A stretch of DNA of 64,000 nucleotides from NCBI GenBank assembly GCA_022478985.1, contig JAKSZP010009255.1, positions 62,001 through 126,000 on the forward strand, in the 5' to 3' direction. The translations under genes were made by a program, and so were the position numbers. The notes beneath the pieces are model-generated. The model saw nothing but the letters and a program-made list of their open reading frames with translations. It did no database searches and was not told the DNA's origin. The stretch is from Massospora cicadina. Lineage: Eukaryota; Entomophthoromycota; Entomophthoromycetes; Entomophthorales; Entomophthoraceae. Of this stretch, positions 9,361 to 59,530 are shown in pieces; within the stretch, counting starts at the first letter, position 1, and every line of letters starts with the position of its first letter.

Positions 9361-10310
9361 AATGATGTTGAAGTTTTCTCTCAAACCTTGTCAGAGCACT
9401 TTGTGAATATAGAATCAGTATTCTGCTGGCTCGCTGAGGCAAACATCAAAATTAAGCCTTTTTTTTTTAGTACTAGATGGTCCCAACCCAACATCAAAAT
9501 TAAGCCTTGAAAATGTAAATTCTTCAAAGATCAGTTGGAATACCTGGGGTTTGTGGTAGACTCCAAGGGGCTGAAATCACAGCTGGCTAAGGTGGAGGCC
9601 ATCCACAAAATAAATACACCTAATAGCAAACATGACATACAGTTAATTTTGGTAATGGTCAGTTACTACCAGTTCTTCACCCCTAACTTTAATTGTATTG
9701 GGGGCCACTATTTGAGTTGTTAAAAAAGGATGCTGTGTTTGAATGGACAGAACGTCATCAATATGTCTTTGATATACTAATAATGGCGCTGATCAGTGTA
9801 CCAGTGATATACTATCCAAACTTCAATTGAGAGTTTAGTATTTAGTCGGATGCATCCCTTTCTACTGTTGGGGAATTTCTTTCTCAGAAAGATGACGAGG
9901 GAGAGGATCATCCATTTGCATACTGCAGTCAAAGTCTGAACTGCCATGAGTATAATTATACATAACTGAGTGGGAGTGCTTAGTGGTGATCTACACATAT
10001 AAGCAATATAGAGTCTACTTGCATTGAGTAAAGTTTTAGTTTGTAACAGATCACATGTCATTACATTGGCAACAGAACCTCAAGGATCCTGAAGGGCGGT
10101 TGGCTAGATGGGCTCTCAAGCTGCAGGCTTATGTATTCGAGATCCTTCATTACCCAAGAGTAAAGCATCAGAACGCCAACTGTCTATACCAATTGCCAAC
10201 CATCACTGTGATGGTGGATCTCAGTGATGTGATGTATAATAAGATAATTAGTGGTAAATATGATGACAAACCACCCCAAGTGATCAAAGTGTTAAATGAG
10301 ATGTGAATGA
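9361..10310 (+). pseudogene. Element B RT thumb and RNase H
   Basis: Continues the RT after the insertion: VFSQTLSEHF, then LAEANIKIK at about 9433-9458, interrupted by the 29-base LINE-tail insertion, then KCKFFKDQLEYLGFVVDSKG at 9512-9571 and the connection segment. RNase H follows in broken frames: the VYYPNFN area at about 9805-9830, a short piece near 9890-9930, and a frame from 10055 with LQNLKDPEGRLARWALKLQA, the usual end of gypsy RNase H. Several stops. Confidence 0.75.
9442..9508 (-). mobile_element. 29-base LINE G tail insertion with 19-bp duplication
   Basis: Bases 9461-9489 read, on the minus strand, GGGTTGGGACCATCTAGTAC followed by TAAAAAAAA. This equals the last bases of LINE G (32055-32080) with one mismatch. 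The insertion is flanked by a perfect direct repeat, aacatcaaaattaagcctt, at 9442-9460 and 9490-9508. The interrupted codons belong to element B RT. It is a target-primed insertion truncated almost to nothing. Confidence 0.9.
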
Positions 10311-10319
10311 ATACCTTCC

Positions 10320-11410
10320 AATGGAATGGAGAACTGTATATGCGGATTGGTGATTCACTGGTGAACTTTCCGCAACCCTCAGCATGGCCTGAAATTTTTT
10401 ACATGAGCGCCCACAAGGAAGTTGGACATGGTGTTGTACACAAGACAATTAGCTGTTATGACCTCAGTACTATTGAGAAAGTATGAACTTTAACGTGATC
10501 AAAACCATTTCCTGTTGCCATCAGTGTCAAGTGGAGAAGCCATTCCACTGAAAGACCTTGTACCATCTAGTGAAACCACATTTTTCTTGGCATATGGTTT
10601 AGCTCAATGTTTTTGGCCCTCTTCCAATGGGAGCCAACCGGTGTAAGTAAATTCTGGTGGCTATTGATCACTTGATCAGGTGGGTTGAAGCTCAGGTGAT
10701 ACGTGATGTGGGGGCAGTCACAGTGGCCAAGTTTGTAATGGAGTGTAATATTTAATGACACGGCTATCCTCAGTTCATTCTCACTGATAATGGAACCAAC
10801 TTCACCTTGCACATCCTCCCCGAATTTAATGAACTTATGGGTATCCACAGGGTTCTGATGACTCCATATCACCTTGAGTCCAATGGAATGGTCAAACGGG
10901 TTAATGGGACCTTGGTGAACATACTACAGAATTTTGTAACAGATCAACCTTCTGTTTGAGTTCCCTCCTTTCATCACTGCCATGATATTATAATAGTTAC
11001 CATTCCGCCATGGGGAAGAGCCCCTTTCAATTACTATACATAAGACACCCAGTTCTTCCAGCATTACTTTATTTGTGCATAGAAGACACCAGCAGATTTG
11101 AACCCCACCACTATTTTAACTACCCTTGCAAACACTTTGATCAAATTGCAAACTGAAGCATATTCCTTCAGCATTGCCAATAAGATCATAAATCAGGCTG
11201 CTGATCTGGTACGTTATAGTGGGTTGGCACAGTTCAAAGAAAACGATATGGTTCTCTTTCATCTTTTACATGGGTTCAGGCAGTTACACAGGTTAGCCAG
11301 TACTTGGATTGTCCATTTAAAGTCATAAAGAAAACTGAAGTCAATGCTTATACCATCAAGGACCCCGCAAGTGGTAAGATCATTAACTGAGTGCACAGGA
11401 AGTTCCTCCA
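10320..11410 (+). pseudogene. Element B integrase (degraded)
   Basis: Integrase domains in order: HKEVGHGVVHKTI near 10413-10450 (HH part), ISCCHQCQVEKP near 10509-10545 (CxxC part), the first Asp region LNVFGPLPMGANR near 10595-10640 (Asp replaced by Asn), the second in ILTDNGTNFTLHIL at about 10780-10825, and the third region SNGMVKRVNGTLVNIL at about 10879-10930. The catalytic Glu of DDE is Lys (AAA, 10894-10896), following GTC, which fits CpG loss from GTC-GAA. The C-terminal part reaches about 11410. Confidence 0.8.
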
Positions 11411-20219: not shown

Positions 20220-20982
20220 TGTTTGACAAAAATGGATAATTTGGGTAATATGACTACTTTAGTGCTGAATAGCTTATTTATTATTAAAATTTCTACCTAA
20301 CTCTCAGCTGCAATTCTTGATCATAGTAATGATTTTACTTCTCTTATTCATCCAAATAGCTCTAAATAATCTGGATAGGGTACCTCAAACCCCCAGCAGA
20401 ATGTGTGAACTGATTTGGAAGTCCACCTCTACACTAATTTGATTTTAGTGCAATTTTTTTTTTTTAAAGAAACCCCTTTTTATTAAGCTCCATGGGGCTC
20501 AGGGGTTAATTATTTTACCAGAAAATCCTCAACTAAGAACACCATTAATTATCTGAACTAATAATACTTCTAAGATAGATGATTGGAGAGATTATATTAA
20601 AATGTAACCCATGATTAAGTCATCCCAACTGTCAATAAAGCCTAAAGTTAAAATAAATCTTGATGATTGGTTTTGAAGAGTGCTGATAGGCCAAAATGTC
20701 ATTTTAGCTAAATTAAGCTACCCACTGACTAACATATATTTCCCTCAAATCTAACTATTAGCCTCAGAGTAATGTAAATACTAGGAAACGTTAAATTAAC
20801 AGGAGTTCACTTTTACCCCGCTTCTGATATTATATTTTTATAAAAAGAAAATCTCTTTTGTGGTTGATTTTCCCCCTAAAATCTGTAACAGAATTTAAGT
20901 ATCTAATTCCCTATATCTGCTATATTATTGAAATCCTATGCCAAAAGCACCTGATAGCACCAAAGTGCAAGTATTTCAAGTA
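20220..20982 (+). repeat. Element C 5' LTR
   Basis: Aligns with 33204-33981 through many blocks (AGTGCAA, CCCCTTTTTATT, TCAATAAAGCCTAAA, TTTCCCTCAAATCT, TGTGGTTGATTTT, AAAAGCACCTG). It is terminated by the primer-binding site TGGTTCTCACTACAGGG at 20983-20999. The LINE-tail micro-insertion found in the 3' LTR is absent here, giving an empty-site reference at about 20583. Confidence 0.82.
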
Positions 20983-24399: not shown

Positions 24400-25616
24400 A
24401 ACTAAAGGCTACCTTAGAGACATTATAAAATCGCTTCAAAAACGCCCTATCCTACATCACCCTTTATATGGTAAAATTTTCATTTTGTTTACTGATGCTT
24501 TAATACTCCATAGGACTATCTTAGCTCAATTGGATGAAAATGGTGTGGATCACTGTCAGGATAGGGTAGCTGAGGGGGTCGTTCCTCCAAAGCGTGCCAA
24601 AATGGATGGGATGAATTTTTCCGCAGAGATGCAATATCAGGGAGAGCAAGGGATCCAAGACGTAGGGGCCAGTGAATTACTGTAAGTTTTCAAATAGATG
24701 ATGGAGGACTTATTGTAATAAAACTAGTGAATGTGTTGCCAATTGCTAAAGAGAAGCTCGCTAAAAAGGGCTCTAAAATTAAATTTAAACATGATCAAAC
24801 TGGAGTTAAAAACGTATAAATATTCAGTTGAAAAGAGCGCTTTCATATAGGATGTGTCTCCGTCCTTTTTCTTCTAGGGTAGCAATGGCTTCCACCGGCA
24901 AGGTCTTCAACACCCTTTACTTCATCAGATGGAGGATTGATGGAAGGCTTGCTTTTGATAAATTTGTTAGATATCAGGGAATAATGCTTTAATGAGGTTA
25001 AGGGAATTTTGGGAAATGGGTCAGAGAAAGGAAATTTTGGATTGGGCTGAGTGGGAGCAAGGAGAATCCAGTCAGATGTAGGGAAATTCAGTTTGGGCTA
25101 AGAGGGAGCAGGTCAAATCCTGTCAGAGGTAGAGAAATATGGTTCAATTGAAGGTGGGTTCAGAATGGGTTGATCAGGTCTAATTTCAACGATCACCTGT
25201 GCCATACTTCAACAAGATGATCTCAAAAACTGAATGCACCTATAGAGTCACATTGAAGGAATGCCTTTCTGCCTTACTCGCTGTAAATTGCTACCATCCA
25301 TTTTTATATGGCACCACCTTTATTGTGGTTACCAACCACGCCCTCTTGAAATGACTACAAAATATGAAGTATCCTACTTGAAAGTTGGCTCTTTGTCCTT
25401 AAAGCTCCAATAACATATATATGAGGATTTAATACCAGGCTTAAGCTCACCATATGAATGTCAATGGGTTGACTCAGTTTCCTGTCCTTCATTTAGATAG
25501 TAAGGAAGTGGAGAATTTACATGAAAATCCTTATGACCCTGATGCCTGGGACGATGAGGATTAACCCATAAAAATTGTTAGCGCTACACTTTTGCAACAC
25601 CAAGGTTGAGAGAGGG
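24400..25616 (+). pseudogene. Element C RNase H remnant
   Basis: RPILHHPLYGKIFILFTDAL at about 24450-24505 is the RNase H start. A long poorly matching stretch follows, then TLKECLSALLAVNCYHPFLY at about 25250-25310 and TFIVVTNHALLK, the third motif. The spacer MNVNGLTQFPVLHLDSKEVE precedes YDPDAWDDED at about 25531-25563, as in element E (TPDAWADEEE). The domain is longer than usual because of extra sequence at about 24560-25200, which looks unrelated. Confidence 0.7.
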
Positions 25617-25636
25617 AAGATATACAAAAAGGTAGG
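25617..25636. repeat. LINE G target duplication (left)
   Basis: aagatatacaaaaaggtagg, identical to 32091-32110. In element C these codons join RNase H to integrase, so the single copy was the intact target. Confidence 0.93.
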
Positions 25637-25944
25637 AATCTCTTTCTGCTAAGCATCACTTTTCGAAAATCAATTCAGCCTGAAATTTAGCTCCACTAAA
25701 GAGATTTACGAAAACTATTAGCAAATATGGCGGGAAACCCCGCAAAAGAACCCGCAGGCTATGCCAAACGAGCCAGCACCACCCCAAACGAAGCAACCCT
25801 CGGTTACCCACCTCAGGGTCAACCAGAATCACCCGCTCTCAAGCAGCAGCCATGAAAGCAGGCACCACCCCCCAACCTTGAGCTACTCCAACTAGCGCCA
25901 GTTCACCTGATCGCACTTCTGCAACCTGCACGCCTAACAGCTCT

Positions 25945-27290
25945 GTGTGTGCTGCCTCCCACCAACCCGCTGGGCCCCCTCCAACCAAGGAGGCCATCAC
26001 CCACGCTGTTTTAATGGCGTCTGCTCAGTTGAATGCAACTCAGCCCATCCAGACATTCACCTCCCCCATTGTGTCAGCTAATTCAGCCCCATCTATTATT
26101 GCTGACGCCGTGTTTCTGGCTCCCTCCATGAGGGGCGATACCCAGCTACCTGGCCCCCAAATCCTCAGATGTAAGGTTGGATTAGCCGCACATTCTGGTT
26201 CACTAAGCACCAAATTGGGACAATCTACTCTTCCCAATGAGGATTCAAATGGTTCGGATTTTGGAACTTCACACCAGTTCCAATCTCACCCGTCCCATTT
26301 AAACCCCGTAATTGGCACTTCTCAAGTTGGCACTTTATCTCCATATGCTGAAAACGACAAATTCACCAATCAGCCAGTGAGTTTTGCCCACGAAATCACA
26401 GCAAACACTCGGGCTGAATTTACCCAAATAGATTGGGATGGTGATGAAACATCTCCCTCCTCCCAATTGGCTGGAGTTAATTCCAATCTGGATGGGACTC
26501 CTCAATTTAGCGAGGCCCAACAATCACCTGGCCCCCAAACCCTCGGATGTAAGGTTGGTTTAGCCGCACATTCTGGTTCACTAAGCACCAAATTGGGACA
26601 ATCTACTCTTCCCAATGGGGATTTAAATGGTTCAGATTTTGGAACTTCACACCAGTTCCAATCTCACCCGTCCCATTTAAACCCCATAATCGGCACTTCT
26701 CAAGTCGGCACTTTATCTCAATATGCTGAAAACGACCAATTCACCAATCAGCCAGTGAGTTTTGCCCACAAAACACAGCAAATACTCGGGCTGAATTTAC
26801 CCAAATAGATTGGGATGGTGATGAAACATCTCCCTCCTCCCAACTGGCTGGAGTTAATTCCAATCTGGATGGGCCTCCCCAATTTAGCGAGGCCCAACAA
26901 ACCGCCCCTCAATTTAATATGACGCCAGCAACTGCTGTAACATTCCAGAAACAAGGGAACTCCGCAAACTTGTCCAAACCACCAGCTCACACTCAACCTG
27001 TAATTGCAGCCCAAAGCAAACACAAACGTACCAAAGGAGCCACTGGGGCGTGGCAAAAACCTCTGGCACCAACGCTACCCAAAGCTGATCCCCGTGAAGT
27101 GGCGTTTATTGCCGATGTTAAGAAGAAATGGGCCGAAACTAGAGCGCAAAAAGCTCTACCTCGCTCAACCCTCTCCCACGCAATTCGCCTTTATTATGGG
27201 CATAACCCTGTTGAATTCTATACAGAGGATTACTTCTCATACTTTGCAGCGATTGCGGAGACATTCCTATTAACACCACCATCCATGAAT
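25945..27290 (+). pseudogene. LINE G ORF1, N-terminal half with tandem repeat
   Basis: An open frame of 287 codons (25945-26808) rich in Pro, Ser, Thr and Gln, probably disordered. It contains two copies of a 126-residue unit (378 bp; 26151-26528 and 26529 to about 26900), each with LGCKVGLAAHSGSLSTKLGQ. A one-base deletion in the second copy near 26768 ends the frame; coding continues in the frame open at 26919-27280 (PADPREVAFIADVKKKWAET-like, basic). The start at 25945 is not the only option; no upstream ATG in frame is evident. RNA-binding Orf1p function is inferred from position. Confidence 0.7.
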
Positions 27291-28445
27291 CAGTGGAGGG
27301 CCACTACATCGATGTGGGCTTCACTGAAGCTGCCCTTGCTGACCATGCTGCCACCCTCCAGGTCATTATTCCACGCGGATCTCTTCGCATCTCCCGCACA
27401 CGCTCTCACCTGGAGAAAATTTCATGGGTTACTTTTTCCAACCTACCAACGACTGTTGATCCTGAGTCTCTTAAACTGGCACTCCATCGTGGTTTAATGG
27501 AGTTTGGGTCTGTTCTTTCAGTGGACTTTAGCGTCCCCTCTTACTATGCTCCCACTCAAAGAGCTCGCACTGCTAGGGCGTCATTCATCCCCTCCCCCAC
27601 TGTATCCCGTAACATTGAGGTTATTCCTCGTGTGGCGGTAGTTGGGGCATGCCCTGAGATCTTTTTTGTCGACCCTGATCAGGCGCGCCCCGGTGTTCAT
27701 GGTGTAACGCCCTTGGACACTTGTATAGTGGCTGCACAGCTCGAAAACAAGCCCTCTTACCCACCACCCAGGGGCCTAAAACAGGCCAAAAACGATCACA
27801 CATGGCTACAGCAGCAATTCCACAACCCACACAATGGGTTCCCGCTCAAGACCTGTCCCCTGAGGCCTTACGCCTAGCAGTTGAAACAGCTAACCCCACT
27901 ATTGGTGTGGGATACCTTCGCGCTCATGCCCCCCTTCCAATGGGCACCCCCTCCAATCTCCCAGAGTCAACTCCCTCTCTCACCAAGCGCAAGGCATCTC
28001 CCACAGGGTGCCCCTCGTCAGCCACCCCCACTCAGGGCTCCGCGGCACCCCCACCAACCCCACCAGTGATTTATCGCATCAGCCCTCAGCTCCCAATGGA
28101 GCTATGCCCACCAGCATGGACTGGCAACTCGCGGCCTGCAGTAGAAGTGCCACCTCAAAGAGTCCTACCCCAACCCCAAAGTCCATTTCGCGCGGATCCT
28201 TTGCAGTGTTGGAGGAAGTGAATATGGACTCAGACTCATCAAATGGGGACACCGCGGAGGTCACCATTGAGCACCCTCAGGTCCTTCCCCTGCAACGGAG
28301 CGGGGGCAGCATCCTAGGCTGGCTTACTGGGTCCTCCGCCCCCCACCCTCTCCTTCCCCTCAGAACCCTCGACGCTCCTCACGGATTGCAGCTAATAGTC
28401 AAGCTAAAGGACTCAAAACTAGCCGCCTCACAGCAGCAGGTTTAA
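27290..28445 (+). pseudogene. LINE G ORF1, C-terminal half with CCHC zinc knuckle
   Basis: The frame 27293-27690 contains WVTFSNLPTTVDPESLKLAL, followed by a basic beta-strand pattern resembling an RRM-like fold of LINE Orf1 proteins. A frame change near 27690 (in gcgcgccccgg) leads into a CX2CX4HX4C knuckle at 27694-27735 (CSWCNALGHLYSGC). A Pro/Ser-rich tail follows in two frames to about 28445. An intact zinc knuckle with RRM-like domain is typical of nucleic-acid-binding Orf1p. At least two indels break the frame. Confidence 0.75.
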
Positions 28446-28482
28446 GCGCTGGCAACCCCCCAGGACATGGAGGGGAACAGCT

Positions 28483-29340
28483 ATGAGTCCCCATGGCAGC
28501 ACCTTGGCCCTGCAATCCATCAACGCAAATGGGTTGCGGGACTTTAAGCGGAGAGCCCGCCTCCTCCGAAACTTCAGGTCAGCACAAATTGACATCGGTG
28601 CTGTTCAGGAGCCCCATATCCTCCCCCACGAACAATCTGCATGGAATGAACAGTTTGGAGGCAACTCCTTCTGGACAAACCATGCCGCCCTTATTGTTTT
28701 GAATCCTCGGGTTAAAACCCATTCTTTTTCACAATATCTAGGTGGCCGCCTCATACTGGCCAAACTCACCACTCCTGACTTCTCCTTCTTCGCTGCAAGC
28801 ATCTACCTGCCTAATGCAGGTCAGGAGCAAAATCGGCTCTTGGAAGAGCTCCTCCAACTCAATCTCCCACGGAATACAGTTCTCTTAGGAGATTTCAACA
28901 CAACCATAAGTCGCGTCCGTGACTCTTACCCCCCTGCAGCAAAAGAACGCCCTGGATCAAGTCGCCTCCAGGATTTCCTTCGCCTGAGTGGCTTTATAGA
29001 TGCGCTTCCACCCTCCGCGTCTGGCCTAGGTTGCATGACTAGGATCCAGTATGATGGAGGAGCTTTCCAGTCAGCGTCACGCATAGATATGGCACTGATT
29101 GGCCCCCTGCTAATTGGCCGCGTCTCCTCTCCCATCTCTCGTGACAACCATCTGAGTGATCACAGGTCACTCACCGTTGTCCTCACCACCACACTTAGAC
29201 CGTCGCGTAGGTTCTGGCCTAGGGTTGCCCCAGCTCTTCTCAACAACCCCTTCACTAAGGAGAAGCTGTCTATGACCATCCGGGAGACTCTCACCTCCCC
29301 CCACCCCACCTGCTTGACCACAAGGCTAGATGGGCGGTGA
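28483..29340 (+). CDS. LINE G ORF2 endonuclease domain
   Basis: An open frame of 285 codons encoding an apurinic/apyrimidinic-type endonuclease, which nicks target DNA to start reverse transcription. Motifs in order: LQSINANGL at the start, AVQEPHIL (catalytic Glu), IYLPNAGQ, LLGDFNTTIS (GDFN), SRIDMALIGP and SDHRSLTVVL (final SDH). All key residues are present, unlike in LINE F. The frame ends at a stop made by a one-base shift near 29290-29320, in a C-rich tract, just before the RT frame at 29337. ORF2 begins 37 bases after the last ORF1 codons. Confidence 0.9.
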   Translation: MSPHGSTLALQSINANGLRDFKRRARLLRNFRSAQIDIGAVQEPHILPHEQSAWNEQFGGNSFWTNHAALIVLNPRVKTHSFSQYLGGRLILAKLTTPDFSFFAASIYLPNAGQEQNRLLEELLQLNLPRNTVLLGDFNTTISRVRDSYPPAAKERPGSSRLQDFLRLSGFIDALPPSASGLGCMTRIQYDGGAFQSASRIDMALIGPLLIGRVSSPISRDNHLSDHRSLTVVLTTTLRPSRRFWPRVAPALLNNPFTKEKLSMTIRETLTSPHPTCLTTRLDGR

Positions 29341-30866
29341 CCAAGGAGGGCATCACCCGCGTTGCTTACAACTGTGCCAAAGCCCAGATGACTGCAGCTC
29401 GCGCCAGAGTCAAAAGGGCGGAAGCCAGAATCAGACATCTAGAGCGAAACTGCCAGCCTTCGCCCTCTCCCAGATGGTTGGAAGGCTGGGAAGCGGCGCA
29501 GGAAGCACTCCGCTTGGAGCTCACACTGCAGGAAGAACGGGCAGCAAACTTTACAACATCTCGTTACTATGCTCAATGGGAACGCCCCACCCGCTTCTTC
29601 TTTCAGAAACAGAAAGCCCGGTCAACAGCGCAGGATATTACTGCACTGAAGATTGGCACTACAACCACTTCAGATAAGGAGGAAATCACGCAGGAACTAC
29701 ACCGCTTCTACTCCAGCCTCTTCCATGCCACCCAGGTGGACCCATCGGACATCCAAGACTTCCTGTGGCGGGCTCCAGAGCCGCCCATTGACCCACGGGC
29801 TGATGAGGCTCTACTGGCGCCTATTTCCATCCAGGAGGTGATGGAAACCCTTCTGAAATCCCCACGGCTTAAAGCCCCAGGCCCAGATGGAATACCCTTT
29901 GAGGTGTACCTTCTGGAACCTGCAGTGATAGCCAGAACCCTCCGCGACCTCTTCGCTGCACTCTTGGTGAATGGCGAGGTCCTCCCCGACTCCAGAGGCT
30001 CAATCACGACCCTCATTCACAAGAAGTCAGACCGTGAGAACCTGGCAAACTGGCGCCCCATAGCGTTGATCAACACAGACCACAAGCTCTTCACAAAGCT
30101 TCTGGCCAACCGCATCACCAAATGGGTGTCACCTCGCCTCTCCCCATCCCAGTACGGTTTTATTCCGGGGAGGTCGTTATGGGACAACTATAATGACCTT
30201 CACGTGACTTTGACTGCTAACTCTCGTAAGGTGAATGGCTTTGTGGCTCTTCTGGATATGGAGAAAGCATATGATCGGGTAGCCTGGAAGTATATTGATG
30301 CTTCCCTGGCCCGCTTCCATCTCCCACCCGCAGCTAGGCGCTGGATATCATCGCTCTATGACCAGCTCCACACCAGAGTCCTGGCGCCAATGGGTTTTAC
30401 AGTGGCAGTACCAGTTGGACAAGGTCTCCGGCAAGGGGACCCCCTGAGCCCTATCCTTTTTAACATCACCCTTGACCCCCTCTTGGCCTCCTTACAGGAC
30501 AAGCTAACAGGGATTCTGGTCCCAGGTAAAGCCCCCACACGCACCATGGCATTTGCAGATGACACTGCCATTGCATTTGGCTGCCCTGGGGATGTTGCCC
30601 TCGCTGCTGTGACCATTGAGAGGTACACCAAGGCGTCCAACGCCATGGTCAACACCTCCAAGACAACAGTTGTACAGGTCGGCTCCCCCACCTTCCCCCC
30701 ACCATTTGGTATTGAACCTGAGCGCGGTACCTTCCGTCACCTGGGAGTTCTCACCAACCAACAAGGAGTTGCGCTAAAAGACAATGAGGACTTGCTCCTT
30801 GCAGCAGTTAACTCCAGGATTGCCAGCTGGAACCGGCGGCACATCACCCCCAGGGTCGAGCTCTGA
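29337..30866 (+). CDS. LINE G ORF2 reverse transcriptase
   Basis: An open frame of 509 codons. The N-terminal basic helix (AKAQMTAARARVKRAEARIR) leads to the RT: KAPGPDGIPFEVYLLE, RPIALINTDHKLFTKLLANR, SQYGFIPGRSLWDNYNDLHV, VALLDMEKAYDRVAWKYI (first Asp), GQGLRQGDPLSPILFN, and MAFADDTAIAFG with the catalytic FADD. All motifs are intact. The frame ends at a stop following SWNRRHITPRVEL, where related elements continue, so a small indel near 30860 is likely. Confidence 0.93.
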   Translation: MTKEGITRVAYNCAKAQMTAARARVKRAEARIRHLERNCQPSPSPRWLEGWEAAQEALRLELTLQEERAANFTTSRYYAQWERPTRFFFQKQKARSTAQDITALKIGTTTTSDKEEITQELHRFYSSLFHATQVDPSDIQDFLWRAPEPPIDPRADEALLAPISIQEVMETLLKSPRLKAPGPDGIPFEVYLLEPAVIARTLRDLFAALLVNGEVLPDSRGSITTLIHKKSDRENLANWRPIALINTDHKLFTKLLANRITKWVSPRLSPSQYGFIPGRSLWDNYNDLHVTLTANSRKVNGFVALLDMEKAYDRVAWKYIDASLARFHLPPAARRWISSLYDQLHTRVLAPMGFTVAVPVGQGLRQGDPLSPILFNITLDPLLASLQDKLTGILVPGKAPTRTMAFADDTAIAFGCPGDVALAAVTIERYTKASNAMVNTSKTTVVQVGSPTFPPPFGIEPERGTFRHLGVLTNQQGVALKDNEDLLLAAVNSRIASWNRRHITPRVEL

Positions 30867-32010
30867 TGGCCAATGTGTTCCTCCTCTCCAAAGTCTGGTT
30901 CCTAGCGCACGTCTGCCCATTCACAGATGCCTTTTATACGCGGCTCAATGTACTCCTCCGCTGTTGGATCTGGGTCAAACCATCCACCAATAGCCCTCTC
31001 AACCATTGCCCGACCCTGCAATGAAGGGGGCCTAGGGCTTCTGGACACGCGATCCCACGCCACCACAATCTTCCTGAAGTTCCTATGGCCGATTGTCTGC
31101 TGGGACGCGACCCCCATGCCCCAATGGGCGCCCGCCCTCCGCCATCCAGTGTCAGCAGCTCTGGGTCTTCCTAGAGCATCTCTGACCTCATTAGGGGAGT
31201 GGCTCACAAACCACCCAGGCCATCGCCTAAAACCATCCTCATCCCCCTACTGGAACCAGGCTCTTTGCCCTGAAACGAGTAGGCGCGCGGATCCACCATG
31301 CCTTCCCATACAGAAGGGAAGGCCCTGGCCTCAGCCCACGTCGCCATGCAATTGTGCACAATGGACAAGTTGTCACAACTCGCCTCAACCCCCAATATCG
31401 TCCTCCCATCCGCCCAAGACTCCTTGAGCTCCTCCCTCCCTCCGTGAGATTTGACCTTAAGGAATTGTGGAAGGACGTCTATCACCCCATCCTGTCAGCA
31501 AAGGTGTCCAACACCTTATGGAGAGTGCTCCACTGTTCATACAGGACAGGGGACCGGACTGGCCCTACCTTCCAGCACCGAAGCTGCCCCCGCTGTGTGG
31601 AGCCTATTGACTCCCACCTCCATCGTTTTTTCACCTGTCCAGGTGTCGCCGCATTTTGGCCAAAGGCCCGCGCGCTCCTCCATGCTCAGCCCTGGTCTGG
31701 ACACCCTGTGCAAGACCTCATGTTTGAGCAGACATTGCCTGGTTGCCACCGACCCCTCCGTGTCCTCGCCTATGCCACAGCCATCTGGACCATCCATAAC
31801 TCCTTCCTTCGTGCTGCCTTTGACCAGCAGGTGTGGACCCTTCCACACATGATCACCCACTTTCAGGTACACTTTGAGATGGCCCTGAAGGTCTGCACTA
31901 TGTCGCCAACCCTCCCCCGCTCAGTTGTCACTGCAGCACGGCTCTGGCGCGCAAACCCCCTCCCTTTCTCGATGCCTCCTCCCTCCCCTTCCCTCGCCTC
32001 AGGCTCTTAG
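30867..32010 (+). pseudogene. LINE G ORF2 C-terminal region with zinc module
   Basis: The ORF2 end is spread over three frames: MANVFLLSKVWFLAHVCPF just after 30866, then 30927-31280 (IARPCNEGGLGLLDTRSHAT), then 31354-32010. The last contains TLWRVLHCSYRTGDRTGP and CPRCVEPIDSHLHRFFTC at 31585-31638, a zf-RVT-type zinc module. Two or three indels disrupt it. The 3' UTR is short, about 65 bases, ending GGTACCATCTAGTACT before the A tail. Confidence 0.85.
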
Positions 32011-32110
32011 GAGCCCAGGCGTAATTCAATAAACATCGATGAATCCCCCCCCCTTGGGTTGGTACCATCTAGTACTAAAAAATAAAAAAAAAGATATACA
32101 AAAAGGTAGG
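32011..32110 (+). repeat. LINE G 3' UTR, A-rich tail and right target duplication
   Basis: The 3' UTR ends in ggttggtaccatctagtact, followed by aaaaaataaaaaaaa and the duplication at 32091-32110. This terminal signature recurs at 9461-9489 and 33569-33586 as isolated micro-insertions. Confidence 0.9.
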
Positions 32111-33203
32111 GGCAAATTGGCTGCTCTATTTTTGACCTTCTAAACGAGTACTTGTTATCATAGAGGTTCACTTTACCCTTGGTCACGGCAAAGTAATAAA
32201 AACTAATTAGTGGGATAGATTGGTACTATTGGAAGGTAATTATTATGTCCATCATCAAAGTTCTTGGATGCCTGCTTGACCTGCAAAAAGCATCCCAGCC
32301 TCAAACTAAATATCAACATCCCCTACTAAGCCTCAACAACCATTCCCCACAATAAGTCTAGATGTGGCAGGTCCTCTCCCACTCTACCAGAATTGATATA
32401 TACCAGTAGTCATTGATAAAATTACAGAGTGAGTTGAAGTTGAGGCTCTCCCTGCCCAAACTGCAAAAGCTACTGCAAGTTTCCTTTACCAGACTATTTT
32501 CACTCGCCATGGTTACTCCTCAGGTTCTGCTCTGTGATAATGGAAAAAATTTTATGACCAAAGTGGTCAAGATTCTAGCTACCTCCATGGGAGCACAGCA
32601 GCTCTTCTCAGCCCCATATAACCCTTCTATGTATGGCATTGTAAAAAGAGCAAATGAAACCTGGTATCAATACTATGAAATAGCCACTTTTGACCCTCTA
32701 TACTGAAATTGGTTCTTGTCTAGTGCCCTTATGGATTATTATATCAGTTATAACTTGATCCTTAAAATCCCTTATTTCCGCATTATGTATGGTCAAGAAC
32801 CTTGGGTACTGGCTCTATTAGCTAAAGATGTTTTCTTAGCTAGTACTGGAGATCCTGATCATGTCATGAGGAAAATGGCCTAAAACATCATTCAGCTTTA
32901 ATCTGTTCCCATGACCAATCTAGCAAAAGCTGTCACTAAAGAGGATCAAGTTGCTAATGAGCTCAGACCAACTTTACCTTCTTTTCATGTATCAGACTTA
33001 TTTTTAATATCATAATTGTATAGCTCCCAGATTTGAGAAGCTTAGTCCATTTGGAAAAAAAACTTTGTTGTCACCTATAAGTGAGGCGATGATGAGCACA
33101 TCAAATCTCTTGCTTCTGGGGTTAGTAACAATCGTTTACATGGACGTTTTCAATGCCTCTATTAGCCCCCCAACTTCTTTAGGGGTAAGCTTGGGCAATT
33201 GAA
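32111..33203 (+). pseudogene. Element C integrase remnant
   Basis: Resumes element C after the LINE. ACLTCKKHP at about 32270-32297 is the CxxC end of the zinc module; TISLDVAGPLPLY at about 32349-32388 carries the first catalytic Asp; LLCDNGKNFMTKVV at about 32528-32570 the second; and YGIVKRANETWYQYYE at about 32631-32680 the third, with Lys (AAA, 32644-32646) in place of Glu. The GQEPWVLALLA segment at about 32791-32825 is the C-terminal part. Bases 33000-33203 hold spacer and a weak PPT (taggggtaa, 33179-33187). Confidence 0.78.
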
Positions 33204-33981
33204 TGTATGACTAGTAAGTACGAATATTTTGGTGCTGAATAAGTTGATATTACGTAAAAAACTGGGCTTAATGCTCAGAAGAATTTTATTGATTGGATTA
33301 ATGATTTTACTTATTGTACTCAGCTAATTAGACTTAATTGAGCTGGTGAGGTTACTTTGAACCTCTAGAAGAATGCACAAGCTGACTTTGAAGTATGCCC
33401 CTGCACTAGTTTAGATTTAGTGCAACTTCCTAAGAGAAAACAACCCCTTTTTATTGACCTGAAGGGGGCTCTGGAGATATAAATTTTTTAAGCAAATCAT
33501 TACTAAGAACCTTCAGTAAATGACCAAACTGATGATATTTTTTACATGGATAAGAGATATTATATCAACCATCTAGTACTAAAAAAAGAGATATTATATC
33601 AAAATTTTACTCATGACTACATTATCCCAGATGTCAATAAAGCCTAAAATTTAACCAAATAAAGATGATAGGTTTTTGAGAGTGTTGATAGGTTAAATCA
33701 TCTTTAGGTAAATTGATCTACCCACTGCCTAACATTAATTTCCCTCAAATCTTACTATTAAGCTCAGTGTAGTATAAATACTTGGAGGCGTTTAGTTAAT
33801 ATTGGATTGCTTTTACCCCCGCTTTGATATTATATTTTTTATAATAACAAAATCTAATTGTGGTTGATTTTTTCCCTAAAGTTTTAACAGAAGCTAAGTA
33901 TTAAATTCTCTATTATTTGCTATATCATTGAAATCCTGTGTCAAAAGCACCTGTGGGCACCAAAGTGCTAGGATTCTAACA
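33204..33981 (+). repeat. Element C 3' LTR with LINE-tail micro-insertion
   Basis: Aligns with the 5' LTR at 20220-20982, ending GGATTCTAACA. A TATA-like GTATAAATAC lies near 33772. An extra ~34 bases at 33569-33602, absent from the 5' LTR, are an 18-base LINE tail plus duplicated target. Confidence 0.82.
33553..33602 (+). mobile_element. 18-base LINE G tail insertion with 16-bp duplication
   Basis: ccatctagtactaaaaaa at 33569-33586 equals the final 12 bases of the LINE G 3' UTR plus six A. It is flanked by perfect repeats agagatattatatcaa (33553-33568 and 33587-33602). The sister LTR at about 20570-20600 (gattggagagattatattaaaa) is the unfilled site. Confidence 0.9.
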
Positions 33982-42438: not shown

Positions 42439-43892
42439 TTATTAAACAGTTTACTGTTAGAAGCTATGGGAAGAAGCTGAGAAGAAATATGAGTTTCGTT
42501 TTGCCTCAAGAGGAGGAAGGAACTTCTTAAGTTATAGGAAAAGGTTTAGCAGTCTTGATGTTGAATGATCTAGCTTGCAAAGGACCTGTTCCGCCAGATA
42601 TATGCTCATACAAAGTAGATATCAGATTTATTTATAGAGGACATGAGATGGGATCTACTATGTTAAGATACAACGCTAAAGGTAAAAGTTATTAATTGAG
42701 CAAAGTCAAATATGAAGGCGATTGATCTAAAGTATTGTAAAGAAAGTTTCTCAACCTTCTACTAGATGAATAATGGAATAGGCAAAAATGCTGAGGATGA
42801 AAGTATCAACTTAAGTTAAAGTTAGATGAAGCTAACGTGGCGTATTAATCCATGTGTTTTAGAAGGATCATTTCTAGATCTGCCTGCAGAATTTATTTAT
42901 ACTTTAGGAATGGCAGTAAATGCCAAGAATCGATTTATGAATAAAATTAATAAATACAATTAGAACTAGCAATTAGCAATAAAATCACTTATTATGATAT
43001 TAAATGAATCAAGTGACGGCTATCTTTTTATAAATTAGGATTAGGACCTGTTGAAAACAATGAAAAGCCTGGAATGAAGATAAATGGTTGGGACCATCCA
43101 AAATATTTACTAACTTGGTGACAGATGCCTATGTTATAAAGAACGTTGTGGATGGTCATATCTAGTGAAGAAGGTTGATACTCTTTATTTATACTATTAT
43201 ATCTATAAGAAATTATTTTAATGTTTCTGTGGGACCTCTGAACCTACTAACATTAGGTTAAGTTTCATTGTGTTAGCTAATTATCTATATGTGACTGCTG
43301 AACCATAGTTGCTGGTTAAGTTCAAAAACGGACCTCTGAACCAAAGGCATAGTTGGAAAAGATAAGATGGGCCTCTAAACCTACTTATATGTTAAGTCCC
43401 TTTCCAACAAGAGAGAAAAAATAAATATAAGAAATAATATAAAAACATGTAGAAGATAAAAAATGTAAGTAAAACATTATTTTTTTTATATTTTGCTGAG
43501 TTCTAAAGCATCTGGTGGTGTTCTCACATATTGTTAATAGGAGCTAGGTTGAAACTGGATCCACTAGAAAGAGGATCAATGAGAAAGGATTAAAAGAAGA
43601 TCTGCTCTGATCAAAAATTAGAGAGCCCATCCTGGGAGATTATAGGAAAGATTGAATTGGTAAAGCTGACTAAGAAATTCCTCTAAATGACATGGTGTCA
43701 TGGAAACTCAATCTGGATTAATAGATGCTTTAAAAAACATATCTATAATAGAAATGAACAAAATAGTTTACATGTCATGAGGCTGTAGGAATTGCGCTCT
43801 GAGGAATTGGCAGCAAGTAGGAAACAAAGAAGAGGATCCAATTTGCTGAGCATGGCATGAGATGCAATTAATGCAGACAAAAAACCTACGCT
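42439..43892. other. Unassigned AT-rich stretch with short repeat array
   Basis: No coding or element signature. At 43228-43395 four units of about 35-45 bases repeat the theme GGACCTCTGAACC...GTTAAGTT (43228, 43291, 43334, 43367). Similar text occurs in D elements near 14190-14250 and 50350-50450, so part of this stretch may be a third, diverged D copy. Confidence 0.4.
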
Positions 43893-45813: not shown

Positions 45814-46530
45814 TTAAACGTTGTCCAGGATATGATGCTCCATTACCATTGAGTCATATCCTCCCGCCTCCAGCCACACTCCCAAATGGCAGACTGGACT
45901 AGCGGTGGGTCTTGGCACAAAGGGGAGCATAAGCGGGGCGGTGTGGGGTGGGCAGGGCAAGTGAGCCCGTGAGCAATTTTCTGAAGCAGGTAGAAAACGG
46001 GCTGCTGGGGACCAGTGGGCTTGGTACCGACCAAGGAGAAAGATTTCACTTTTGGAGGCGTTAAGTGCAGCATAACTTACCCTGTTGTAAACCTGGATAG
46101 TGTCTTCAAGCGCGCGTGCATCATGATTGTTAGAGACCCAAACCACACAATCATCAGCAAAAGCCAACATCTTGACTGATGCTTGGCCTTGCACATGGAC
46201 ACCAGTAAGACTGACATTTATATTGCGAAAAAGTGGGTCAAGGCTGAAGTTATAAAAGAGTAGCCTTAAAGGGTCCCCTTGGCGTAGGCCCCTTTGAGGG
46301 CGAATTACATCCTTGAGGAAGCCAGGGCCATGCACAGCCATTGTGGCAGATTTTGTGAGCAACATCACCCAATTAATGAAATGATAGGGGATGCGAAAAT
46401 TGTGGAGGAAGGCTCTGGGGTAATCCCAGTTGACTCTATCATAGGCCTTCTGCTTGTCTAAAAAACAAGTCGTCCAGAAGCCGTGGATTGGCAGACGTTG
46501 GCTACTGTGTGTATGTTTTAAATAGACCAT
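45814..46530 (-). pseudogene. LINE F reverse transcriptase core
   Basis: An open frame of 238 codons on the minus strand with CFLDKQKAYDRVNWDY (first Asp), GLRQGDPLRLLFYNFSLDPL, and KMLAFADDCVVWVSNN (FADD intact). The start of RT lies upstream at 46890-46540 in broken frames (SPKQFGFIPK-like region near 46550). The motif order equals that of LINE G, but identity is low. Confidence 0.88.
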
Positions 46531-58800: not shown

Positions 58801-59530
58801 ATAGGGGATAAATCTTGATAATAACCAGCCATTCCTAAAAACACTTGGATATCCCGCAAGCTTTTGGAATAGGCATGTCTAAATAGCTTGTATCTTATTA
58901 GATAAGGGTAAAATACCTTTACAATTAACTTTATGTCCCAAAAAATTCCATCTCAGCTATAAAAAAAGCACACTTCGATGGTTTAAGCTTAAGAGAGGCA
59001 TGACGCAGCTGGCCAAAAACTTCCTTCAAATGAGCCAAATGATCATTGAAATTGCGTGAAAAAACAGTAACATCATCTAGGCAAACTAAAACACAAGAAA
59101 GTTTCAAATCCCCAAACAAGCCATCCATGGCTCGTTGAAAAGTAGCAGGGGCATTGCAAAGCCCCTGTGGCATATGAGTTGGCTCATGTAGCCCCTCACT
59201 AGAAATTAGAGAACATTTTTGACGATCTTCTGGGCCAAGATCAATTTGCCAATAACCACTTGCAAGGTTCATAGCAGAGAAGTATTGTGATCCAGACAAT
59301 AATCTCAAGGAATCATCAATGCGAGGTAAAGGATAAGAATCCTTTTGAAGTAAAAGCATTGAGTTGATTATAGTCCATAACCACTCAGTGACCCCCATCT
59401 TTTTCCAGATGATTAGTAGAGGGGAAGCCCAGGGACTCTTATAAGGCGTTAGTAACCCAGCCTCATGTAGTTGTTTCAGTTCCGCTGAGACTTGAGCCTC
59501 CTCAACTTTGGATTCGCGATATGGTAAAGC
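58801..59530 (-). pseudogene. Element H reverse transcriptase
   Basis: The minus-strand frame 59398-58931 (155 codons) has KDSYPLPRIDDSLRLLSGSQ, FSAMNLASGYWQIDLGPEDR, MPQGLCNAPATFQRAMDGLF and VLVCLDDVTVFSRNFNDHLA. The active-site Asp pair is intact; Tyr of YLDD is Cys. The fingers (KSPWASPLLI) lie at about 59445-59410 in another frame. This is a typical gypsy palm with a few breaks. Confidence 0.88.

Follow-up and report, generated by a model that had tools for sequence, protein, structure and literature searches.

Very short LINE insertions with perfect target duplications in Massospora cicadina

Two insertions of 17 and 29 nucleotides, each made of the 3' terminus of a LINE followed by a few A and enclosed by a perfect target duplication (TSD), are present in the window analysed here, a stretch of 64,000 nucleotides from Massospora cicadina (contig JAKSZP010009255.1; positions below count from the first base of the window). 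Both are very probably 5'-truncated copies of an L1-like element, LINE G, generated by target-primed reverse transcription that ended early, a reading drawn from two mini-insertions (n = 2) in one 64-kb window.

A LINE and two fragments of its 3' end

LINE G is near-full-length and occupies positions 25637 to 32090 on the plus strand. Judged from its sequence, it is L1-like, by virtue of an APE-type endonuclease (Exo_endo_phos, PF03372, E = 2.3e-9) and a reverse transcriptase of the L1 type (RVT_1, PF00078, E = 5.4e-34). It also has a zf-RVT-like C-terminus, whose Pfam score fell just under the cut-off (26.4 versus 27.5 bits), and an A-rich tail. LINE-1 ORF2 protein chains were among its best PDB matches (E ~1e-36). 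Its reverse transcriptase is at most 40% identical to the best 120 of 591 database relatives (7998 candidates scored), and no match was found in the plasmid collection with 200 bases of the LINE G end as query. The element is flanked by a perfect TSD of 20 bp, with the left copy, AAGATATACAAAAAGGTAGG, at 25617-25636 and the right copy at 32091-32110, both on the plus strand. A tandem duplication of about 377 bp, 95.5% identical, lies in the region of its first ORF (26148-26900). The window also holds a minus-strand reverse transcriptase fragment of another LINE, at 45814-46530 (PF00078, E = 1.2e-14).

The first mini-insertion lies on the plus strand at 33552-33602, in the order AAGAGATATTATATCAA - CCATCTAGTACTAAAAA - AAGAGATATTATATCAA. 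In its longest parse, two identical 17-bp repeat copies (33552-33568 and 33586-33602) enclose a 17-nt insert, CCATCTAGTACTAAAAA (33569-33585), which is CCATCTAGTACT followed by A5, for a net gain of 34 bp. CCATCTAGTACT (33569-33580) is the exact 3' end of LINE G, identical at 12 of 12 bases to the LINE copy at 32065-32076, after which the A-rich tail begins. Because an A precedes the 12-mer in the LINE and also ends the left repeat, the insert contains either 12 or 13 LINE bases. The A-tail (33581-33585) comprises five A of a seven-A run, of which the other two belong to the right TSD copy. The initial annotation had recognised at 33553-33602 a LINE-end insertion with a perfect target duplication, and both the sequence and the coordinates hold. 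The 16-bp TSD and six A that it gave are equivalent to 17 bp and A5, because A residues at the 3' junction can be assigned to either part, so that only the choice of the longest parse differs.

When the window was searched with up to two mismatches, the 15-mer formed by CCATCTAGTACT and AAA was found three times, always exact, against 0.18 expected from window shuffles. The 12-mer alone showed no clear excess, with nine matches against 4.85 expected and nine reached in 5 of 100 shuffles, a result that we count against the case. Of these nine matches four are exact, including one at 2901-2912 that lacks an A-run. This copy of CCATCTAGTACT and another LINE 3'-end 12-mer without an A-run, GTACCATCTAGT at 10560-10571, were taken as chance matches.

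The second mini-insertion, which the initial annotation did not include, lies on the minus strand at 9442-9508 and reads AAGGCTTAATTTTGATGTT - GGGTTGGGACCATCTAGTACTAAAAAAAA - AAGGCTTAATTTTGATGTT. It was found by a scan for direct repeats that used no motif. A perfect 19-bp TSD, with the LINE-upstream copy at 9490-9508 and the downstream copy at 9442-9460, encloses 21 nt of the LINE G 3' end, GGGTTGGGACCATCTAGTACT, followed by A8 (9461-9489; blastn identity 93.9% over 33 nt, E = 1.3e-7). The match to the LINE G 3' terminus extends over 20 of the 21 bases, the one mismatch being counted against, and up to 23 LINE bases are possible because TT is common to the repeat and the LINE. The net gain at this site is 48 bp.

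Empty sites

For both mini-insertions the empty site is visible in a diverged paralogue (a sister LTR and a sister Gypsy reverse transcriptase), not in an orthologue. The 9.4-kb insertion sits in a Gypsy-type reverse transcriptase remnant with stop codons, of which a sister is found at 58931-59398 (PF00078, E = 6.8e-23). When the filled remnant was aligned with this sister, a single gap of 16 residues appeared, exactly 48 bp (E = 2e-8), and when the flanks were joined the alignment was ungapped over 48 residues (E = 3e-12). The exact 16-residue gap is independent evidence of the empty site at 9.4 kb. In the remnant of the mobile element, the formerly coding frame has been lengthened by exactly 16 codons.

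Near the other insertion, two LTR-like stretches, 20245-20975 and 33214-33975, align over 771 columns with 70% gapped identity. The one at 33.5 kb carries the insert and a second target copy, whereas the one at 20.6 kb has, at 20570-20610 on the plus strand, a single diverged target copy without an insert; the proposal of the initial annotation that the sister LTR preserves the empty site is confirmed by alignment. If one target copy and the insert are left out, the local alignment runs through the site and scores 70 instead of 48. A 3-nt gap beside the site remains after the flanks are joined, in a sister LTR that is only 70% identical, and this is counted against.

The stretches at 20.2-21.0 and 33.2-34.0 kb may be the two LTRs of one element inside which the LINE inserted. 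The domains around LINE G agree with this reading and do not prove it: among four stop-to-stop pieces scanned against Pfam, two matched, an RNase H-like piece upstream of the LINE (PF17917, E = 2.1e-9, 25184-25351) and an integrase core-like piece downstream of it (PF00665, E = 1.8e-4, below the curated cut-off, 32410-32703).

Two structures against the background of the window

In the motif-free scan, exact direct repeats of at least 13 bp with starts at most 120 bases apart were sought over the whole window. Three plus-strand pairs were obtained, namely the 33.5-kb case, the 9.4-kb case and a pair at 43232-43342. The last is a 13-bp direct repeat with starts 98 bp apart and without an A-tail. 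An A-tail was then demanded and inserts were restricted to 4-150 nt, with 20 first-order Markov resamplings of the window as the control. Two repeats of at least 12 bp were observed against a resampled mean of 0.0 (maximum 0); the corresponding values were two against 0.05 (maximum 1) at 11 bp or more, two against 0.35 (maximum 2) at 10 bp or more, and three against 1.15 (maximum 3) at 9 bp or more. A 9-bp pair at 33666-33694, recovered at seed 9, was dropped as chance, the count being within the control range. When two mismatches in 14 were tolerated, two cases were observed against a resampled mean of 0.3 (maximum 2). Across the window, exact seeds of 9-13 and the search with two mismatches in 14 gave no further mini-insertion, of LINE G or of others, beyond the two.

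Extended to 9 kb at seed 13, the scan gave four cases against a mean of 0.8 (maximum 2), adding the full LINE and a 27-bp exact repeat, 4817/11908. This repeat flanks about 7 kb in which the second mini-insertion lies; it was rejected as a LINE insertion, its inner end not being a LINE tail.

We also examined 307 runs of at least five A on both strands, leaving out those near the window ends. For each, two 60-base segments were compared, one lying just before the preceding 12-mer and the other beginning with the first A of the run, and the longest repeat common to both was recorded. The flanking repeat was at most 9 bp for 305 of them. The two exceptions, with at least 10 bp, are the two mini-insertions, both after CCATCTAGTACT. 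The LINE 3' end precedes just three of the 307 runs, and the probability of finding both exceptions in this group by chance is about 6e-5. By the same rule, 30 of 5000 random positions gave at least 10 bp (21 of 10, 4 of 11, 2 of 13 and 3 of 17), some of which may lie on the features themselves. Around 11 occurrences of the motif plus A in unrelated contigs (6 genome, 5 viral), flanking repeats were 4-8 bp long and none was above 8. The initial annotation had named as an objection that the motif with its A-run might be common without flanking repeats; across the A-runs of the window and these 11 occurrences, the reading is not overturned.

These data bear on one alternative, a local tandem slip or a chance direct repeat, for which the AT-rich site of the 33.5-kb insertion could be invoked. 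We consider it refuted, its probability being practically nil, because the inserted bases, 12 in one case and 21 in the other, correspond to the LINE 3' end rather than to the sequence around them, and because no such structure with repeats of at least 12 bp arose in 20 Markov resamplings. Local slip, which the initial annotation had named as something the LTR alignment might show, is excluded at 33.5 kb by the identity of the insert.

A target-primed origin and its alternatives

The target-primed reading is favoured because each insert finishes with the LINE 3' terminus and a run of A and is enclosed by a perfect TSD, of 17 and 19 bp respectively, because the full LINE has the same type of TSD, of 20 bp, and because the window encodes endonuclease and reverse transcriptase domains of a LINE. 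The 3' anchoring, the A-tail, the TSD size and a possible 5' microhomology of 1-2 nt all fit it as well. L1-type TSDs are about 7-20 bp long; those found here measure 17, 19 and 20 bp and are all perfect, and the A-tails of the mini-insertions are A5 and A8. The proposal of the initial annotation for the 33.5-kb site, target-primed reverse transcription stopped some 12-13 nt from the LINE 3' end, remains the best reading, and the second case has the same anatomy.

All three TSDs start with AAG and are preceded by a non-A base. The bottom-strand contexts are TCTT/AT, CCTT/GA and TCTT/CC. Compared with the L1 cleavage definition YYYY/RR given in PMC4859970, one of the three conforms strictly and two have a pyrimidine and a purine at the cut, the full-length copy being without a purine after it; this imperfect fit is counted against. 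Table 1 of the same article records TCTT/AT for one Alu and one SVA insertion in humans.

The following course of events would account for both cases. The LINE endonuclease would nick the bottom strand at YCTT/, as the AAG at the start of the TSDs indicates, and the T-rich end would anneal to the poly(A) tail of the LINE RNA. Reverse transcription would copy a few A, continue into the LINE 3' end for 12-13 or 21-23 nt and stop there, an early arrest that we infer because the inserts are 3'-anchored. Top-strand cleavage at a distance of 17 or 19 bp would follow, the 5' junction would be joined with possibly 1-2 nt of microhomology, and gap filling would yield the perfect target duplications observed. 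This suggests that LINE copying can stop almost at once and that the insertion is still completed.

An RNA hairpin at the 3' end, with a predicted stem of 6-7 bp by the A-tail (32059-32078), was considered as the cause of arrest. It is not claimed as such, because the stretch is no more stable than its shuffles (z = -1.00 and 0.05). The 9.4-kb copy is truncated next to nine consecutive C of the LINE 3' end and the 33.5-kb copy at the border of a small predicted hairpin; as each association was seen only once, we treat neither as evidence on arrest.

The same target-primed mechanism could have acted on another RNA, a SINE or other transcript with a LINE G-like 3' tail, the inserts then being truncated SINEs. 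The inserts are too short to separate source RNAs, and the one at 9.4 kb has a mismatch to LINE G. We nevertheless regard this origin as unlikely, since a search of the window with the terminal 20 nt of the LINE, four mismatches being allowed, gave the full LINE and the two mini-insertions only and no tail-bearing SINE. Templated end joining of the polymerase theta type, in which the LINE G end was copied at a break and 17 bp were duplicated, draws some support from the proximity of the donor, as the LINE end at 32065 is only 1.5 kb upstream of the 33.5-kb site and in the same orientation. It is very unlikely in view of the second case, which is about 22.6 kb from the LINE end and in opposite orientation, yet is anchored in an A-run in the same way and has a TSD of comparable size. 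Templated repair would not be expected to draw on the LINE 3' terminus repeatedly. Finally, longer LINE insertions might have been shrunk later by internal deletion, which is common in old LINE copies. Deletion would then need to have halted precisely at the edge of a TSD on two occasions, and perfect TSDs of 17 and 19 bp are a sign of recent insertion, so that we judge this origin extremely improbable. The target-primed origin from LINE G is retained below.

Precedents, age and frequency

The mini-insertions resemble human 5'-truncated L1 copies in being 3'-anchored and A-tailed, with a similar TSD size, a pyrimidine-rich cut and possible 5' microhomology. They differ in the LINE part, which is only 12-21 nt here, and in A-tails of only 5-8 nt; the shortest L1 with a stated size in the disease table of PMC4859970 (Table 1) has 90 nt and A22, with a 21-bp TSD. 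That table also lists an Alu insertion of 31 nt plus A11 and, as its shortest, one of 6 nt plus A40 in a SERPINC1 disease case, with a 1.4-kb deletion and TSD given as N/A, as well as poly(A)-only insertions (pA 35-120), three of four of which have deletions and no TSD. The SERPINC1 Alu and the poly(A)-only insertions are alike to ours in having almost no element body; they differ in that the TSD is perfect at both of our sites, with no sign of a deletion. The description of the 33.5-kb insertion as close to the minimum possible length was thus overstated, the 6-nt Alu having less element body.

In Anolis carolinensis, many CR1 insertions of less than 50 bp are inferred in PMC5389967, whose authors' BLAST possibly missed them; these share the severe truncation and belong to a different LINE clade. 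For L1 of the same species, the article describes copies truncated before 1 kb or tending to be complete. An L1 junction study took insertions of 50 bp to 10 kb (PMC2912911), and the mini-insertions fall below this lower bound. Ultra-short insertions are therefore already known as a kind (the 6-nt Alu; CR1 below 50 bp), and the pair described here illustrates it cleanly, the TSDs being perfect, the tails short and the empty sites visible. As for the claim that such products would be missed by any repeat masker, which we judged by plain blastn with the LINE as query and without a repeat masker, it is half right: with word size 7 the 33.5-kb copy was missed (E ≤ 1e-3), but the 9.4-kb copy was found (E = 1.3e-7).

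The TSDs of the mini-insertions directly abut the LINE sequence and A-tail and have no mismatch in 36 paired positions; the full copy has none in 20. Set against a difference of about 30%, gaps counted, between the LTR-like stretches, this makes the LTR element appear far older than the LINE insertions. The absence of mismatches at 56 positions is compatible with up to about 5% divergence. Older, mutated mini-insertions would be under-counted because most scans sought exact repeats, and the density rests on one unselected case in 64 kb, since the initial annotation had already singled out the 33.5-kb insertion but not the other.

The LINE G copies of the window measure 6454, 29 and 17 nt between their TSDs, and blastn found none of in-between length in the window. 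One full copy, two with 12-23 LINE nucleotides and none between are compatible with unusually frequent arrest at a very early stage but do not show it. We put forward only tentatively, and with considerable doubt, that truncation of LINE G is bimodal, taking place in the first 25 nt or else not happening, and that genome-wide a very large population of TSD footprints of 30-50 bp outnumbers recognisable LINE copies and escapes annotation.

The two cases suggest that very little cDNA is required to complete a LINE insertion, and that the second strand can be cleaved, the ends joined and the target duplicated once about 20-30 nt have been synthesised. If frequent, such events would be a hidden source of short insertions, their footprints would provide a count of insertion attempts that stopped early, and the point at which reverse transcription arrests could be mapped from the scars.
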